A stretch of DNA of 64,000 nt from Pseudodonghicola xiamenensis DSM 18339 (GTDB lineage: Bacteria; Pseudomonadota; Alphaproteobacteria; Rhodobacterales; Rhodobacteraceae): assembly GCF_000429365.1 (NCBI RefSeq), contig NZ_AUBS01000014.1, forward strand, positions 1-64,000, in the 5' to 3' direction. The notes beneath the pieces are model-generated. The model did no database searches. It was not told the DNA's origin and saw only the letters and a program-made list of their open reading frames with translations. Every line of letters starts with the position of its first letter. Within the stretch, counting starts at the first letter, position 1. Shown here piece after piece: positions 1,020 through 15,390 of this stretch. The position numbers and the translations under genes were made by a program.

Positions 1020-1331
1020 TCCTTCCAACAGACTTTGTTTTTATCAGCTTCGATTGCGGTCTGTCGTGGGCTGCGCGTCAAAGCAGTTCCGGCCTGCGGT
1101 CATGTCTGTCTCCGGCCATGTCGGCGAAAGGGGCGTGCGATGGCGACGCGCCCGTTGATCAATGCTCGGTCATGATTGCGCTCCGCCCGGGCCCGTTCGT
1201 TGAGCGTATCGCCGCTGGTGTAGAGCCAAGCTGCCCCTGTGGCCCCCGGCGCCGCGGGGTGCTTTTCGGGATGCATTGGATTTGCACATTGTATACACAG
1301 TGGCTCAGAGTAGCTGACCGGAGAACGGATC
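1020..1331. other. Intergenic region between tRNA-Trp and the GntR gene
   Basis: No convincing gene was seen; the short overlapping reading frames on both strands have no recognisable domain. A T-rich stretch near 1033-1045 may help end the tRNA transcript. The only clear signal is the TGTATACA palindrome near 1290. No integrase fragment or repeat of the tRNA 3' end was found. Confidence 0.6.
1289..1298. promoter_or_regulatory. Predicted GntR operator upstream of the regulator gene
   Basis: TTGTATACAC contains the perfect palindrome TGTATACA (1290-1297). It lies about 35 nt upstream of the GntR start. The same core occurs before the exporter gene (2765-2772) and in the transporter/hydrolase divergent promoter (5496-5503). 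TATACA could also serve as a -10 box, so binding would block RNA polymerase. Autoregulation is inferred. Confidence 0.65.
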
Positions 1332-2027
1332 ATGGCCCCGAAAAAAACGACCCAGCGATTGGGGGCTGCGCATAATGCGCTATTTCTGCAAATCCATGAA
1401 GAGATGCGTCGCCGGATTCAGAACGGCGATTTCAAGCCGGGCGACCGACTTGTCGAGGATCGTCTGGCCGAGGAGTTCGGGGTGTCACGCAACCCGGTGC
1501 GGGAGGCGATTCGCCTGCTGAGCTCTGATGGTCTGGTCGAGGTGAACGCGCGACGCGGGGTCTATGTCAGCGTGCCGGAAGTCGAGAAAGCGCGTGAGCT
1601 GGTCGAGATCCGCGCGGTGCTTGAGGGGCATAACGCCCGACTGGCGGCGCGGCGGGGTAATCCCAAGCTGTTGGCCGAGGCGGGAAAGATCCTGGAAAAG
1701 GGGCAGGCGGCGCTGGCGGGCAAGCGAACCTCGGCGCTGGCTCAGCTCAATGATGATTTCCACAGGGCGCTGTCGCGGGCGTCGGAGAACGAAACCCTGG
1801 CCGAGATGCTGGCGACGCTGCGCCTGCGTAGTTCGCTGGTTTTCGCAATGGCGGATCCTGAGGTGCAGGGGCAGTCCTGGCAGGAGCACGCCGATATTCT
1901 GCGCGCGATCCTCGATGCGGACGAGGACAAGGCCGCGGCCTTGTCGACGGATCACGTGTTGCGCGCGGGGGAGCGGGCCCGCGCGCGCAGAGAGCGTCTG
2001 GCATCAGACGGTGAGCTGACGCAATAG
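1332..2027 (+). CDS. GntR family transcriptional regulator, FCD (FadR-like) subfamily
   Basis: The 231-residue protein has an N-terminal winged helix (about residues 14-78, with GDRLVEDRLAEEFGVSRNPVREAIRLL matching the GntR signature in pieces such as GVSRNPVREA). A C-terminal all-helical FCD ligand-binding domain follows (about 85-215, with the EIRAVLEGHNARLAA helix). The ATG at 1332 has GGAG 8 nt upstream. It is probably a repressor that senses a small carboxylate or related metabolite and controls the neighbouring transporter, exporter and hydrolase through the TGTATACA sites. Its 3' end overlaps the convergent exporter gene by 24 nt. The ligand is unknown. Confidence 0.9.
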   Translation: MAPKKTTQRLGAAHNALFLQIHEEMRRRIQNGDFKPGDRLVEDRLAEEFGVSRNPVREAIRLLSSDGLVEVNARRGVYVSVPEVEKARELVEIRAVLEGHNARLAARRGNPKLLAEAGKILEKGQAALAGKRTSALAQLNDDFHRALSRASENETLAEMLATLRLRSSLVFAMADPEVQGQSWQEHADILRAILDADEDKAAALSTDHVLRAGERARARRERLASDGELTQ

Positions 2028-2753
2028 CAGTACGATCGCGCTGAGTGCCGAAACCCCGAGCACGATGCCGCGCATCCGGCGGGCCGAGACCAGCGCGTGC
2101 AGGCGCCCGGATACGGAAAAGCCCAGCAGCAATGGCGCCAGCATTGCGAGACCCAGAACGATTTCATGCATGCCGAAGCGGCCGACCCAGCTCAGCGCCC
2201 CGATCGAGATCAATGTGCCGATGGCCAGAAAGCCGCCGATCGAGGCACGCAATTGTGCCGGGGGAACTGACTGGTAGACCAGCGCGATCGGCGGCAGACC
2301 GACCGAGGTCAGGGTGCCCATGACGCCGGAGAGGCAGCCGGCGGCGAACAGCGTTCCCGGTCGCGGCCGCAGCGGAACCCTTAGCAGGCTGACCGCAATG
2401 GCAAGCAGGATGGTCAGGGAGAAGGCGATGGCTAGCGCCCGGACCGGCAGCATTCCCATCAGCAGTGCGGCTGGGATCGAGGCGACCAGTCGCCCCGCCA
2501 GGGCATAGCCCAGCCCGCCGGTGTCGAGCGCGCCACGCTCGCGCAGGACGGACATGACCGCCAGCACGAAGGAAATCATCAGCAGGGGGCCGGGGACCAG
2601 CTCAGGGTTGAGGACGGCCAGTACCGGTGAGGCCACCATGCCCAAGCCGACGCCGCTTAGCCCCTGCAGGCAGGCGCCGGCGAAGATTATCAGTCCGATC
2701 CAGAGCCAGTGCCCGTCGATCAGCCAGGTGGCGAGAGCAGTCATCATGTGCAT
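2004..2753 (-). CDS. TauE/SafE family sulfite/organic-anion exporter
   Basis: The 249-residue, very hydrophobic protein has about eight predicted membrane segments. The N-terminal GACLQGLSGVGLG segment and the internal GTLTSVGLPPIALVY segment match the two TauE/SafE half-repeats. Family members move sulfite, sulfonates or other small anions across the inner membrane. ATGs at 2753, 2747 and 2744 are possible starts. It is read toward the GntR gene and overlaps its end. A GntR operator lies only 11-20 nt upstream, so it appears to have its own regulated promoter with a very short leader, separate from the ABC operon. The substrate is unknown. Confidence 0.85.
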   Translation of the reverse strand: MHMMTALATWLIDGHWLWIGLIIFAGACLQGLSGVGLGMVASPVLAVLNPELVPGPLLMISFVLAVMSVLRERGALDTGGLGYALAGRLVASIPAALLMGMLPVRALAIAFSLTILLAIAVSLLRVPLRPRPGTLFAAGCLSGVMGTLTSVGLPPIALVYQSVPPAQLRASIGGFLAIGTLISIGALSWVGRFGMHEIVLGLAMLAPLLLGFSVSGRLHALVSARRMRGIVLGVSALSAIVLLLRQLTV

Positions 2754-2763
2754 TTCTTGTCTA

Positions 2764-2773
2764 TTGTATACAT
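2764..2773. promoter_or_regulatory. Predicted GntR operator upstream of the TauE-type exporter
   Basis: TTGTATACAT carries the same TGTATACA core (2765-2772) as the sites near 1290 and 5496. On the minus strand it overlaps a TATACA -10-like box immediately upstream of the exporter start. This is consistent with repression by the adjacent FCD regulator. Confidence 0.65.
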
Positions 2774-2817
2774 AATTTTCAACCGGATCGCGGCATCTAG
2801 CGCCGCGATCCGCCGGG

Positions 2818-3627
2818 TCAGCGTCGGAACAGTCGTTCGGTGCTCTGGATCAGCAGATAGATCGCCACCGAGATCAGGCCGAGGATGACGATGGCCGCCA
2901 TTACCATGTCCATGCGGAAGATCTGGCTGCCGTAGACGATCAGATAGCCAAGCCCGGCCTTGGAGGCCTGGAATTCACCGACGATCACCCCAACCAGGCT
3001 GAGCCCGACATTGGCCTTCAGCGTTGCCATGAAGGTATGGAGGTTACCGGGCAGCACCACCTTGCCGAGGATTTGCCGTCGGGTTGCGCCAAGTGTGCGC
3101 GCCAGTTTGATCTTGTTCGGGTCGGTCTGGCTGAAGCCTGTGTACAGCATCAGGATGGTGATGAAGAGCGCCACCGCGATGGCCACCGCATAGATCGAGC
3201 CCATCGGGCCAAGCCAGATATAGAAGATCGGGACCAGGGCGATCTTCGGCAGCGCGTTCAGCACCACAAGAAACGGGTCGAGGATGCGTTCGAGCATCGG
3301 CGACAGCCACAGGACGACGGCGATCAGCGTGCCGAGCGCCATGGCGATGGCAAAGCTGATCAGAACCTCGAGCAGGGTAACGCCGATATGCATCGCCAGG
3401 TTGCCCTGGGCCACCAGTTCGAAAAAGCCCCTCCAGACCGCGCTGGGGTAGCTGGTGAGCATCGGATTGACGAGCCCGGCGCGGGGCGCGACTTCCCAGA
3501 TGGCGAGGAAGCCGATCAGCAGCAGCAGCCGACCGATCTGGATCTTGCGTCGTTCGATACCCTGGCGTTTCAGCCAGTTCTGATAGGCGATGCTGGGGGC
3601 GGGGGTTTCTGGGGCTTGATCAGACAT
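2818..3627 (-). CDS. ABC transporter permease, NitT/TauT type (SsuC-like)
   Basis: The 269-residue inner-membrane protein has about six membrane segments and a BPD_transp_1 domain. The EAA-type loop that contacts the ATPase is visible as ARTLGATRRQILGKVVLPG near residues 175-195. It is the third gene of a minus-strand operon after the binding protein and the ATPase, and its start overlaps the ATPase end by 8 nt. NitT/TauT family members import sulfonates, nitrate, or pyrimidine/thiamine precursors. The context (FCD regulator, cysteine hydrolase, TauE) does not fix the substrate. Confidence 0.88.
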   Translation of the reverse strand: MSDQAPETPAPSIAYQNWLKRQGIERRKIQIGRLLLLIGFLAIWEVAPRAGLVNPMLTSYPSAVWRGFFELVAQGNLAMHIGVTLLEVLISFAIAMALGTLIAVVLWLSPMLERILDPFLVVLNALPKIALVPIFYIWLGPMGSIYAVAIAVALFITILMLYTGFSQTDPNKIKLARTLGATRRQILGKVVLPGNLHTFMATLKANVGLSLVGVIVGEFQASKAGLGYLIVYGSQIFRMDMVMAAIVILGLISVAIYLLIQSTERLFRR

Positions 3628-4429
3628 GTGAGTCCATCTCCGTCCACACCTTGTGAAAGTAGTCTTTGAATTCCTCCGCGTCGCGGCAGGCCATGGTGCT
3701 GGGGCGCTCTGGGCCGACGCTGGGAAAGTGGATTTCGTGAATGTTGTGGATGCGGCCGGGGCGGGCGCTCAGCACGATCACGCGGTCGGCCATGGCGATG
3801 GCCTCGGGGATGTCATGGGTGACCAGGACGGCGGTCTTGCCTTCGCGCCGGATGATGGTGCCGATCTCGTCCGAAATCGCCAGCCGGGTCTGGAAATCGA
3901 GCGCTGAGAAGGGTTCGTCCAGCAACAGGATATCCGGTTCCATGCACATGGTGCGCCCCAGCGCGGCGCGCTGGCGCATGCCGCCGGAAAGCTGGGTCGG
4001 CTTGTGGTGCAGGAATTGCCCCAATCCGTAGTTGGTCAGGATCCGGGTTGCCCGTTCGCGGGCGGCCTGCATGTCCATGCCGCGAATTTCCGGTCCGAGC
4101 AGCGCATTCTCGAGGATCGTGCGCCATTCGAACAAGCTGTCCTGTTGCAACATGAAGCCGACCTGCGGCGACGGGCCCTTGACCGGCGCGCCGTCGATCA
4201 GCACCTGCCCTGCGCTGGGGCCCAGAAGTCCCGACAGAAGCGACAGCAGGGTGGATTTGCCGCAGCCGGACTGCCCGACGATCGAGATGAATTCCCCTTT
4301 GGCGACTGAAAAGTTGATATCCTTCAGCGCGTGGGTTTCCCCCTCTTTCGAGAAATAGTGCAGGTTCACGTCCCGGAATTCGATCTTGGGCGGCACGATG
4401 TCGTGCCGCCCGGTGGTCGCAGATGTCAT
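3620..4429 (-). CDS. ABC transporter ATP-binding protein, NitT/TauT type (SsuB-like)
   Basis: This 269-residue ATPase is complete. It shows Walker [10 protein letters not shown] (52-60), Q-loop LQQDS (94-98), signature LSGGMRQ (147-153), Walker B ILLLDEP (167-173) and switch His in THD (205). The N-terminus extends about 15 residues before the first strand. It overlaps the binding-protein gene by 4 nt upstream and the permease by 8 nt downstream, so the three are translationally coupled. It powers import of the ligand bound by the preceding periplasmic protein. Confidence 0.92.
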
Positions 4430-5433
4430 TGTTGGTCCTTTGTGAAGAACGTGGGGTCAACGACTGCCGCATAGGGCAGGCGGTTGTCATTGGGCAGAAG
4501 CCCGTTGGCGATCAGCAGATCCTGCAGCCGATCAATGGCTTCCGGGCTGACGGCGGGAGAGGACTTCCAAACACCGGCGGCGCGATGGCGTTCGACGCTG
4601 CTGGCCAGTTCCTCCGGGCTTACGCCGGGAAAATACGGGGCGAGCGCAGTGGCGGCCTCCGCCGGTGTCGCGGTGTCCAGCCAGGCCTGGGCCTTGGCGA
4701 TCGCGCGGGTAAAGCCGCTGACGATCTCGGGGTGATCCGCAATATAGGATTCCCGCGCGATAAAGACGGTATAGTCGATCTGCCCCACCGCCTGGCCGAC
4801 ATTGGTCAGCGCGTGCAGCTTGCCGGTCTCTTCCAGCTTGGTGACGTCGGGTTCAAAGAAGGTGCCGTAGTCTGCCACCCCCGACATGAAGGCGCCGCCG
4901 CGGGCCGGGATCGCCACATTGGTGATGATGTCGACATCCTTGTCCGGGTCCAGCCCGGCGTTTTCCAGGGCCTTGCGCAGAAAGATTGCAGGGGCGGAGC
5001 CTTCGCGCCAGCCGAGGATTTTCTTGCCCTTCAGGGTGGCCCAGTCGAAAGCCTCGCCCGGGGTTTCGCGCCCGACCAGGAAAGAGCCGTCGGTGGCCGT
5101 CAGCCCGGCGAAGATGTGGATCTTTTCCGGCGATTGGCCGTTGCCGACGTAAATCGTGGTCTCCGGGCCGGCGAGGGCGATATCGACCGAGCCGGACAGC
5201 AGGGCGGCGGTCACCTTGTCGCTGCCCTGACCGGCGAGCAGGTCGAAACTGATGCCCTCTTCGGCGAAATATCCGTTCCCGATCGCGACATAGAGCGGGG
5301 AATAGAACAGAGAATGGATCACCTCCATGAAGGCGATTTCAGTGGTGTCCTGAGCCTGGAGTGGGGCGGGGGCGGCGGGCAGCAACCCGAAGGCGAGGCC
5401 GGCCGCAAGCAGCAGATTGCGCGCGTGTTTCAT
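4426..5433 (-). CDS. ABC transporter substrate-binding protein, NMT1/SsuA-like
   Basis: The 335-residue protein has a Sec signal peptide (MKHARNLLLAAG onward, with cleavage likely after LQA near residue 28). An NMT1-type fold follows, with the SPLYVAIGNGYFAEEG segment typical of NrtA/SsuA/ThiY proteins. The ATG at 5433 is preferred over upstream in-frame starts because AGGGA lies 7 nt upstream and the signal peptide begins there. It is first in the importer operon and diverges from the cysteine hydrolase across an operator. The ligand cannot be read from sequence; sulfonate-like or ureido/amide compounds are possible. Confidence 0.88.
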   Translation of the reverse strand: MKHARNLLLAAGLAFGLLPAAPAPLQAQDTTEIAFMEVIHSLFYSPLYVAIGNGYFAEEGISFDLLAGQGSDKVTAALLSGSVDIALAGPETTIYVGNGQSPEKIHIFAGLTATDGSFLVGRETPGEAFDWATLKGKKILGWREGSAPAIFLRKALENAGLDPDKDVDIITNVAIPARGGAFMSGVADYGTFFEPDVTKLEETGKLHALTNVGQAVGQIDYTVFIARESYIADHPEIVSGFTRAIAKAQAWLDTATPAEAATALAPYFPGVSPEELASSVERHRAAGVWKSSPAVSPEAIDRLQDLLIANGLLPNDNRLPYAAVVDPTFFTKDQQ

Positions 5434-5493
5434 GTTGGTCCCTGTGTGTCTGCGATATTGTTTGACGTGTCCTTCTGGTAGGATATGTTGTTC

Positions 5494-5505
5494 ATTGTAT
5501 ACAAT
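5494..5505. promoter_or_regulatory. Predicted GntR operator in the divergent transporter/hydrolase promoter
   Basis: ATTGTATACAAT is a perfect 12-bp palindrome, the best of the three copies. It is almost centred between the divergent starts (about 60 nt from each). The symmetry and length fit FCD-subfamily GntR operators such as the 12-bp VanR-type palindrome. One site could control both directions. Confidence 0.72.
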
Positions 5506-5569: not shown

Positions 5570-6277
5570 ATGGAAACTGAAAAAGTGAGCACTCCACATC
5601 CGTTTGACATGCCGCAATGGGCGATTGACCGGGTGGTGGCCCGGCAAGGGCAACCGCTGGTGCACCGGGAGGTGCCGGCGGCTGAGACCGCGCTGGTCGT
5701 CGTCGATATGCAGAATTACTTCATGGAGGCGGAAAGCCCGGCCAGTGTGCCGCGCGCACGGGCTATCGTGGACAATATCAATCGGCTGGCGGCGGCATTG
5801 CGGGCCGCGGGTGGCAAGGTGGTTTGGATTCGTACCCTCTTCACCGAAGAGGCGCTCGCGGAGATCGAGCACTTCCATCGGGTCTTGCTGCTGCCGGACC
5901 GGTTCGAGGCGCGCTGCGAGGCGCTGGCGCGCGATGCCGAAGGATCGCAGCTCTGGCCCGGGCTCGACGTGCGGGCAGAGGATCTGATTATCGAGAAAAC
6001 CCGCTATAGCGGCATGATCCAGGGGGCGGGCGATCTCGAGGCGCAGTTGAAGGCGGCCGGGGTGTCGGCGATGCTGGTCGCGGGCACGATGACGAATGCC
6101 TGCTGCGAATCCACTGCGCGCGACGCGATGATGCGGAATTTCCGGACGACCATGGTGCATGATGCCAATGCGACCCTGCGGGATGACGAACACGCGGCGG
6201 CGCTGATCAACTTCTATCTGTTCTTCGGGGATGTCGCCGGGACCGAGGAGTTGGTCGCCCGTTATCCCGCCGGGTGA
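5570..6277 (+). CDS. Isochorismatase-like cysteine hydrolase (RutB/N-carbamoyl amidase type)
   Basis: The 235-residue enzyme has the isochorismatase-like fold with the expected triad: D46 in VVVDMQNYF, K143 in EKTRYSGM and C178 in MTNACCEST. It probably hydrolyses a C-N bond of an amide, ureido or carbamoyl compound; members include RutB, biuret hydrolase and N-carbamoylsarcosine amidase. The catalytic Cys is followed by a second Cys (C179), where many relatives have Val. The ATG at 5570 has only a weak upstream purine stretch, and a GTG at 5585 is an alternative. It is divergent from the importer and presumably acts on its ligand. Confidence 0.88.
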   Translation: METEKVSTPHPFDMPQWAIDRVVARQGQPLVHREVPAAETALVVVDMQNYFMEAESPASVPRARAIVDNINRLAAALRAAGGKVVWIRTLFTEEALAEIEHFHRVLLLPDRFEARCEALARDAEGSQLWPGLDVRAEDLIIEKTRYSGMIQGAGDLEAQLKAAGVSAMLVAGTMTNACCESTARDAMMRNFRTTMVHDANATLRDDEHAAALINFYLFFGDVAGTEELVARYPAG

Positions 6278-6384: not shown

Positions 6385-6582
6385 ATGGCTCTCACCAACC
6401 CGATTCAGTTCATCCAGCAGGTCCGTTCGGAGATCGCCAAGGTCGTCTGGCCGAGCCGGCGCGAGGTGTTCCTGACCACGGTGATGGTATTCGTGATGGC
6501 GGCGTTGACGGCGACCTTCTTCGCCCTGGTCGATCTGGGGATCCGCAGTGGGCTGCATGGTATCCTCAGCCTCTTCGGCTGA
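6385..6582 (+). CDS. secE: Preprotein translocase subunit SecE
   Basis: The 65-residue protein is the short, single-span form of SecE. The cytoplasmic amphipathic part VRSEIAKVVWPSRREV (residues 11-26) precedes one membrane segment (about 30-52). It clamps SecY in the SecYEG channel. The ATG at 6385 is chosen because MALTNPIQF begins the family homology; upstream frame extension has no homology. nusG follows but with its own likely promoter. Confidence 0.95.
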   Translation: MALTNPIQFIQQVRSEIAKVVWPSRREVFLTTVMVFVMAALTATFFALVDLGIRSGLHGILSLFG

Positions 6583-8687: not shown

Positions 8688-8794
8688 GGGGGGCGGGTCC
8701 GGGGTGGTGCAGCGGTTTGACCGCTTTGCCGATCTTGGCTAGATCGACGGGAGGGCCCCGGCAGTCGGGCCTGCTGGATGAGAGATGTGAGTGT

Positions 8795-9715
8795 ATGAGT
8801 GGGGAATGGCGGGTCGCCGCGATCCTGAACGAGAGCCTGTCCGATACGATGCGCTTCGCGGCCTGGTATCTGGCCGAGGGGGCGAGCTCTCTGCTGCTGA
8901 TGTTCGACGATCCGCGGGATCCGGCGATGGATGTTCTGGCGGCCCACCCGAAGATAGATTGTATCGGTTGCACCGCGGGTTTCTGGCGCGACCTCGGCAT
9001 GGCGCCGGACGCCAATTTTCCCAAGCGGCAGAATGCGGCGCTGACCTGGGCCTATGGCCGCACTGCAGAGCCGTGGTTTCTGAACGTCGATGCCGATGAG
9101 TTTCTCTATATCGAAGGGCGCTCGATTGCCGAATTGCTGGCGGGCTGCCCCGATGGGGTTGAGGCAATGCGGGTGGTGACGGCCGAGGTTGTCACGCCGG
9201 TTTCGCCAAAGCCGGCGCTGCAATTCCGTCTGCCGATGGAGCGACCGGCGGCAAAGCGGGTCTATCAAGGCGATGCGTCTCTGTTCGGGCCGCGCCGCAT
9301 GGGGCTGATCGGTCATCCGCAGGGCAAATCGGCAACGCGGACCGGTCTTGGCGAGGTGCGCGTGCGCCAGCATTGGGTCGAGCGTCCGGACGGGGCGCGG
9401 GTGAGTGAACGGGAGGTCGGTCGCGAGGCGCGCGCCTTTCTTTTGCACATGATCGGACAGGACTTCGAGGCCTGGCGCCGAAAGCTGGGTTGGCGATCGG
9501 GATCGCGCGGATTTACCACGCCGTTGACCGAGCGGATCGCCGGGATCATGGCGGGGGCGGAGTCGGAGGCGCGGTTGCGCGATCTTTACGATGCGATGCA
9601 CAAGATGGACGATGCGGCCCTGGCGCGGCTGGCGGCAGAGGGCGCCCGGCTTGAGTTGGCTGTCGATCTGGATGCGCCGGCGCGGGCAACGTTCGGCGCG
9701 GACTATCCGGGGTGA
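8795..9715 (+). CDS. Glycosyltransferase, GT2-like (Glyco_tranf_2_4 type)
   Basis: The 306-residue protein resembles GT-A glycosyltransferases of the Glyco_tranf_2_4 group. It has an N-terminal strand (VAAILNES), a nucleotide-binding region and a metal-binding D99-A-D101 in FLNVDADEF. No signal peptide or membrane segment is seen, so it is likely cytosolic and acts in surface polysaccharide or protein glycosylation; donor and acceptor are unknown. The ATG at 8795 is chosen where homology begins. It occupies the gap between rplA and rplJ, normally adjacent in bacteria, and is bounded by a terminator upstream and a hairpin downstream. Confidence 0.8.
   Translation: MSGEWRVAAILNESLSDTMRFAAWYLAEGASSLLLMFDDPRDPAMDVLAAHPKIDCIGCTAGFWRDLGMAPDANFPKRQNAALTWAYGRTAEPWFLNVDADEFLYIEGRSIAELLAGCPDGVEAMRVVTAEVVTPVSPKPALQFRLPMERPAAKRVYQGDASLFGPRRMGLIGHPQGKSATRTGLGEVRVRQHWVERPDGARVSEREVGREARAFLLHMIGQDFEAWRRKLGWRSGSRGFTTPLTERIAGIMAGAESEARLRDLYDAMHKMDDAALARLAAEGARLELAVDLDAPARATFGADYPG

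Positions 9716-11254: not shown

Positions 11255-15390
<4,136 letters not shown>

Follow-up and report, generated by a model that had tools for sequence, protein, structure and literature searches.

The closest described systems to the locus presented here are the local regulons of FadR-subfamily GntR regulators, for which the operator consensus TKGT-(2 or 3 nt)-ACMA includes the site found in this cassette and in which regulators with Asn at position 39 tend to have A/T at the operator centre (PMC4494728). A local GntR/FCD regulon with a conserved predicted operator and a mobile import-hydrolysis cassette is, by sequence comparison, well supported for six genes of the window (the whole 64 kb stretch of DNA that was analysed). 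Genes, sites, the conservation of the sites, a predicted fold and a conserved triad were computed here, with the genes and sites as follows.

1289..1297, no strand: predicted operator 1 (TTGTATACA), ~35 nt before the GntR start codon
1332..2027, + strand: GntR-family regulator with FCD domain (Pfam PF00392, PF07729; recognition helix GVSRNPVREA)
2004..2753, - strand: TauE/SafE-family membrane transporter (Pfam PF01925)
2764..2773, no strand: predicted operator 2 (TTGTATACAT), between the permease stop and the TauE start
2818..3627, - strand: NitT/TauT-type ABC permease (Pfam PF00528; 72-85% identical in orthologous cassettes)
3620..4429, - strand: NitT/TauT-type ABC ATPase (Pfam PF00005; 71-82% identical in orthologous cassettes)
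4426..5433, - strand: periplasmic binding protein, NMT1/THI5 type (Pfam PF09084; model with pLDDT 86; fold matches below)
5494..5505, no strand: predicted operator 3 (perfect palindrome ATTGTATACAAT), between the divergent binding-protein and hydrolase genes
5570..6277, + strand: isochorismatase-fold cysteine hydrolase with predicted Asp46-Lys143-Cys178 triad (Pfam PF00857; model with pLDDT 93)

The genes named in the first-pass annotation (GntR, TauE-type, NitT/TauT importer and cysteine hydrolase) are upheld by Pfam. The regulator scored over the cut-offs for both PF00392 (72.8 bits) and PF07729 (90.2 bits), making it a winged-helix protein with an FCD domain, and the TauE protein scored 64.9 bits for PF01925 (cut-off, 32.6), placing it in the TauE/SafE family. 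None of the specific NCBIfam models among those listed reached its cut-off for any of the six genes. The start of the binding protein is best placed at 5433; its longest ORF, reaching 5610, would span predicted operator 3.

The hydrolase model matched an unassigned cysteine hydrolase, RutB, BiuH, maleamate amidase and TrtA. D46, K143 and C178 are invariant in 21 homologues (at least 40% identity), match the equivalent Asp, Lys and Cys in an alignment with RutB and correspond to the triad of BiuH (PMC5806882), and this predicted triad in an isochorismatase fold places the protein among the isochorismatase-like cysteine hydrolases. All of the matches are at 17-28% identity, so the natural prediction from the model is cleavage of a C-N bond in an amide or ureido group, and nothing finer is justified. 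RutB (ureidoacrylate amidohydrolase) shares the fold, the triad and ~26% identity with the cassette hydrolase, but the cassette is without any other rut gene and the hydrolase was rejected as a RutB at 79.5 bits, far under the TIGR03614 cut-off (377.95 bits). BiuH (biuret hydrolase) and TrtA (triuret hydrolase) likewise share the fold and triad and both act on small ureido compounds, but their identity to the cassette hydrolase is 22-25%, and assignment as BiuH was rejected at 45.7 bits against the NF050097 cut-off of 370. Distant hydrolase homologues adjoin TRAP, oligopeptide, branched-chain-type and tripartite transporters, which offered no specific clue to the substrate. In Paenirhodobacter (locus L042, 7959-10949), the surroundings of the cassette include an amidase, a further hydrolase of this subfamily (40%) and a GntR/UTRA-like regulator, and it is possible that these neighbours hint at the substrate class.

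The word TGTATACA occupies 1290-1297, 2765-2772 and 5496-5503, as had been claimed from the letters alone, with the third copy contained in the perfect 12-mer palindrome ATTGTATACAAT at 5494-5505. All three sites are intergenic and are the only copies in the window, where 0.03 would be expected, and three copies were reached in none of 100 shuffles of the window. Pattern searches of the whole genome (4,728,486 bases), a count that the first-pass annotation had proposed as a check, found the word at six places, three of them within the 4.2 kb of this cassette, which supports the regulon; if the other three copies represent the background rate, ~0.003 copies would be calculated for 4.2 kb. The reversed word has 11 occurrences; the 8-mer is thus not generally over-represented, and base composition does not explain the cluster. 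Going by their translations, the copies outside the window lie upstream of a SAM-methyltransferase-like ORF (C2:12970), upstream of a small multidrug-resistance-type ORF (C15:17267) and before a GntR-type gene with a divergent ABC-transporter ATPase (C23:51879).

With the hydrolase as query, species genomes yielded nine loci that carry these importer genes (59-85% identity), and three further cassette loci came from plasmids, giving 13 with the window; locus L041 is apparently from the same genome as the same-genus relative and was counted once. The six-gene set is found in Rhodobacterales, Hyphomicrobiales and Tistrella amid unrelated neighbours, with the full gene order retained in most loci. 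An adjacent GntR gene is absent in Oceanibium (within the stretch examined) and Tistrella, and in Paenirhodobacter the GntR gene comes after TauE in the same direction. No gene beyond the six is common to the nine genome loci, plasmid neighbours also differ, and no downstream enzyme is conserved with the cassette loci; the attempt to read the substrate from conserved neighbours was given up for this reason. Among 101 genomes, a close regulator was present only in the window's genome and one relative of it. The few genomes with a close regulator and the lack of shared neighbours mark the cassette as a self-contained accessory unit of sporadic occurrence, which has probably spread horizontally. 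The regulator also has a Caballeronia homologue, which is not part of any such cassette, and a Cupriavidus one, next to which the six-gene set was not found.

In the window the cassette is flanked by a tRNA gene (944-1016; Trp anticodon read from sequence) and secE-nusG (6385-6582). In 17 of 30 related loci a tRNA-Trp gene precedes secE on the same strand by no more than 1.5 kb, often by <150 nt, and for this reason the cassette probably arrived by insertion at the tRNA-Trp/secE junction. Farther on, a 332-aa ORF (8717-9715) whose translation looks like that of a glycosyltransferase separates the normally neighbouring rplA and rplJ.

Phylogenetic footprinting of the cassette loci, another of the checks proposed in the first-pass annotation, supports the regulon. 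The binding-protein/hydrolase site was recovered at all 13 loci, 11 of them exact and two with one mismatch (TGTATACG), against expectations of 0.006 exact and 0.42 within one mismatch from resampled sequence of the same dinucleotide make-up. TGTATACAA is the only word widely common to these intergenic regions, and no unrelated word of at least eight letters was shared so widely across the 13 loci. A site before the GntR gene with at most one mismatch (TGTATACA, TGTATACG or TGTAGACA) is present in 8/11 loci with an adjacent GntR and weak or absent in the other three, while a site before TauE occurs in 6/12 loci (exact in the window, L044, L046 and L061; one mismatch in L043 and in L062, the Tistrella locus). 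Of the three promoters originally proposed, the hydrolase/binding-protein and GntR sites thus hold up broadly, and the TauE site in only half of the loci. Judged on these alignments, the three-promoter layout is real but variable, with an optional TauE site, and it is not special to the window's genome, since Rhodoplanes and Allorhizobium also show three sites. At three loci (L061 ~9070-9084, L062 ~11914-11928 and L042 ~4369-4383) an extra imperfect site overlaps the core with a 7-nt shift (e.g., CCGTATACTGTATACAA), and this arrangement could perhaps accommodate a second dimer.

Because it fits the FadR-subfamily consensus and adjoins other FCD-like GntR genes, TGTATACA is, as far as its letters indicate, a generic FadR/FCD-type operator word. 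The first-pass annotation had treated a motif equally common at unrelated promoters, or not conserved beside orthologous GntR genes, as counting against the regulon, and one of these objections is partly true: a perfect TTGTATACAA precedes the C23 GntR-type gene in the window's genome, and in the same-genus genome two perfect copies, 106 nt apart (G001 C9:20558 and 20664), adjoin another FCD-like GntR gene. With the same 10-mer at such genes, the motif alone cannot identify the bound regulator, and its link to the cassette GntR would thus come from linkage and conservation rather than from the letters. These copies favor the view that a paralogous FCD regulator, such as that of C23, is the main or an additional protein at the sites, which would then be a piece of a wider, overlapping FCD network. 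Against it, the sites are exclusive to the cassette in three plasmid records that also carry the cassette GntR orthologue. All YTGTATACRA sites on these plasmids (189-690 kb), those of Salipiger abyssi and Martelella among them, are confined to the cassette; on the 690 kb Tistrella plasmid, where the regulator orthologue (51% identical) lies 360 kb from the cassette, the motif occurs exactly twice, before the hydrolase and before TauE, and the reversed control is absent. The same-genus genome (5.3 Mb) has 2/5 of its YTGTATACRA sites in the cassette. Further, the recognition helix GVSRNP(V/I)REA is constant across the cassette regulator orthologues, but that of the C23 paralogue is GISRTIVRAAL, and binding by a paralogue is considered unlikely, if still worth keeping in mind.

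Repression is the commoner mode among catabolic FCD regulators, which counts against the GntR binding these sites as an activator. This possibility, or that of the TauE site blocking transcription internally instead of serving as a promoter operator, gains from the position of predicted operator 2, 12 nt from the called TauE start and within a co-directional operon, and from some FCD regulators being activators, such as CitO (PMC4746285). Predicted operator 3 is instead 66-70 nt from both the hydrolase and binding-protein starts in the window, as in a shared divergon operator, and either variant appears distinctly unlikely. That the 8-mer is a promoter element (TATACAAT resembling a -10 box) or a chance word is very improbable: the core does contain TACAAT, with 5/6 letters of the -10 box, but conservation is palindromic on both sides, the location is tied to the cassette in other genomes and the promoter scan put no -10 box on the core. 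Together with the shuffles, the genome rarity and the 13-locus conservation, these led to rejection of a chance or promoter-box origin.

The proposal that a compound is imported and then hydrolysed at a C-N bond fits the protein families, while anion export and a sulfonate substrate, raised alongside it, are suggested by family names only. It is doubtful that the cassette specifically handles an amide- or ureido-linked sulfonate, with TauE exporting sulfite or sulfonate. The TauE, SsuC and SsuA/TauA family resemblances suggest it, and the importer shares its families of binding protein, permease and ATPase with SsuABC/TauABC and with thiamin-precursor NitT/TauT importers, but it is far under all of their equivalog cut-offs, including those for SsuA, TauA, SsuC and TauC. 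On subfamily or equivalog models of SsuA/TauA sulfonate binding proteins, the binding protein scored 78.1 bits against a cut-off of 163.5 and 43.9 against 304, which places it outside that group. Its model, built on ten sequences and the one good model of five, matched an unassigned Bordetella protein and a thiamin binder at the head of the list, together with thiamin-precursor proteins, TauA and SsuA; such predicted fold matches do not choose among thiamin, thiamin-precursor and sulfonate binders. Nor is any desulfonating enzyme conserved in the cassette.

The reading preferred here, and a likely one on the sequence evidence, is of a self-contained catabolic cassette of sporadic occurrence, probably spread by horizontal transfer and controlled by a single local FCD-type GntR regulator, operating by import, repression and hydrolysis. 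Binding, repression, the substrate class and export are what we infer. The regulator, presumably as a dimer, would bind TTGTATACAA-type palindromes, with the single site that separates the importer operon from the divergent hydrolase gene controlling both directions, the site before gntR probably providing autoregulation and a third site, before tauE inside the importer operon, contributing in some lineages, including that of the window. By analogy with the family, the ligand-free regulator most likely represses and would release the DNA once the FCD pocket is occupied by the imported compound or by the product of hydrolysis. The binding protein and ABC importer would take up a small polar compound, the hydrolase would cut an amide or ureido C-N bond via the Asp-Lys-Cys triad, probably freeing ammonia or carbamate, and TauE may export the product or surplus substrate.

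Nothing relevant to the six-gene combination was found in the literature searched, and the libraries searched assign no substrate to the hydrolase subfamily or to this importer. The system is judged to be an ordinary local catabolic regulon of a common bacterial kind, not described in the papers searched. Tentatively, it could be a mobile unit of import, hydrolysis and export that gives alphaproteobacteria access to an unrecognised nitrogen source, the exporter disposing of the leftover acid; in that case the substrate would be new to NitT/TauT binding proteins as well as to isochorismatase-fold hydrolases. One small molecule, or its product, should be recognised by the FCD regulator, the binding protein and the hydrolase alike, so that identifying the ligand of any of the three would assign the other two.

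Compared with the described FadR/FCD-subfamily local regulons (PMC4494728; AlkR, PMC12042122), the cassette differs in its regulated gene set, which was not found described in the papers searched, and in the 2-nt GT-AC spacing of its predicted operator, a spacing listed for GntR, HpxS, UxuR and others (PMC4494728). It resembles them in having an FCD regulator, a predicted palindromic operator of the TKGT-ACMA type, a single such site shared across a divergon and probable autoregulation.
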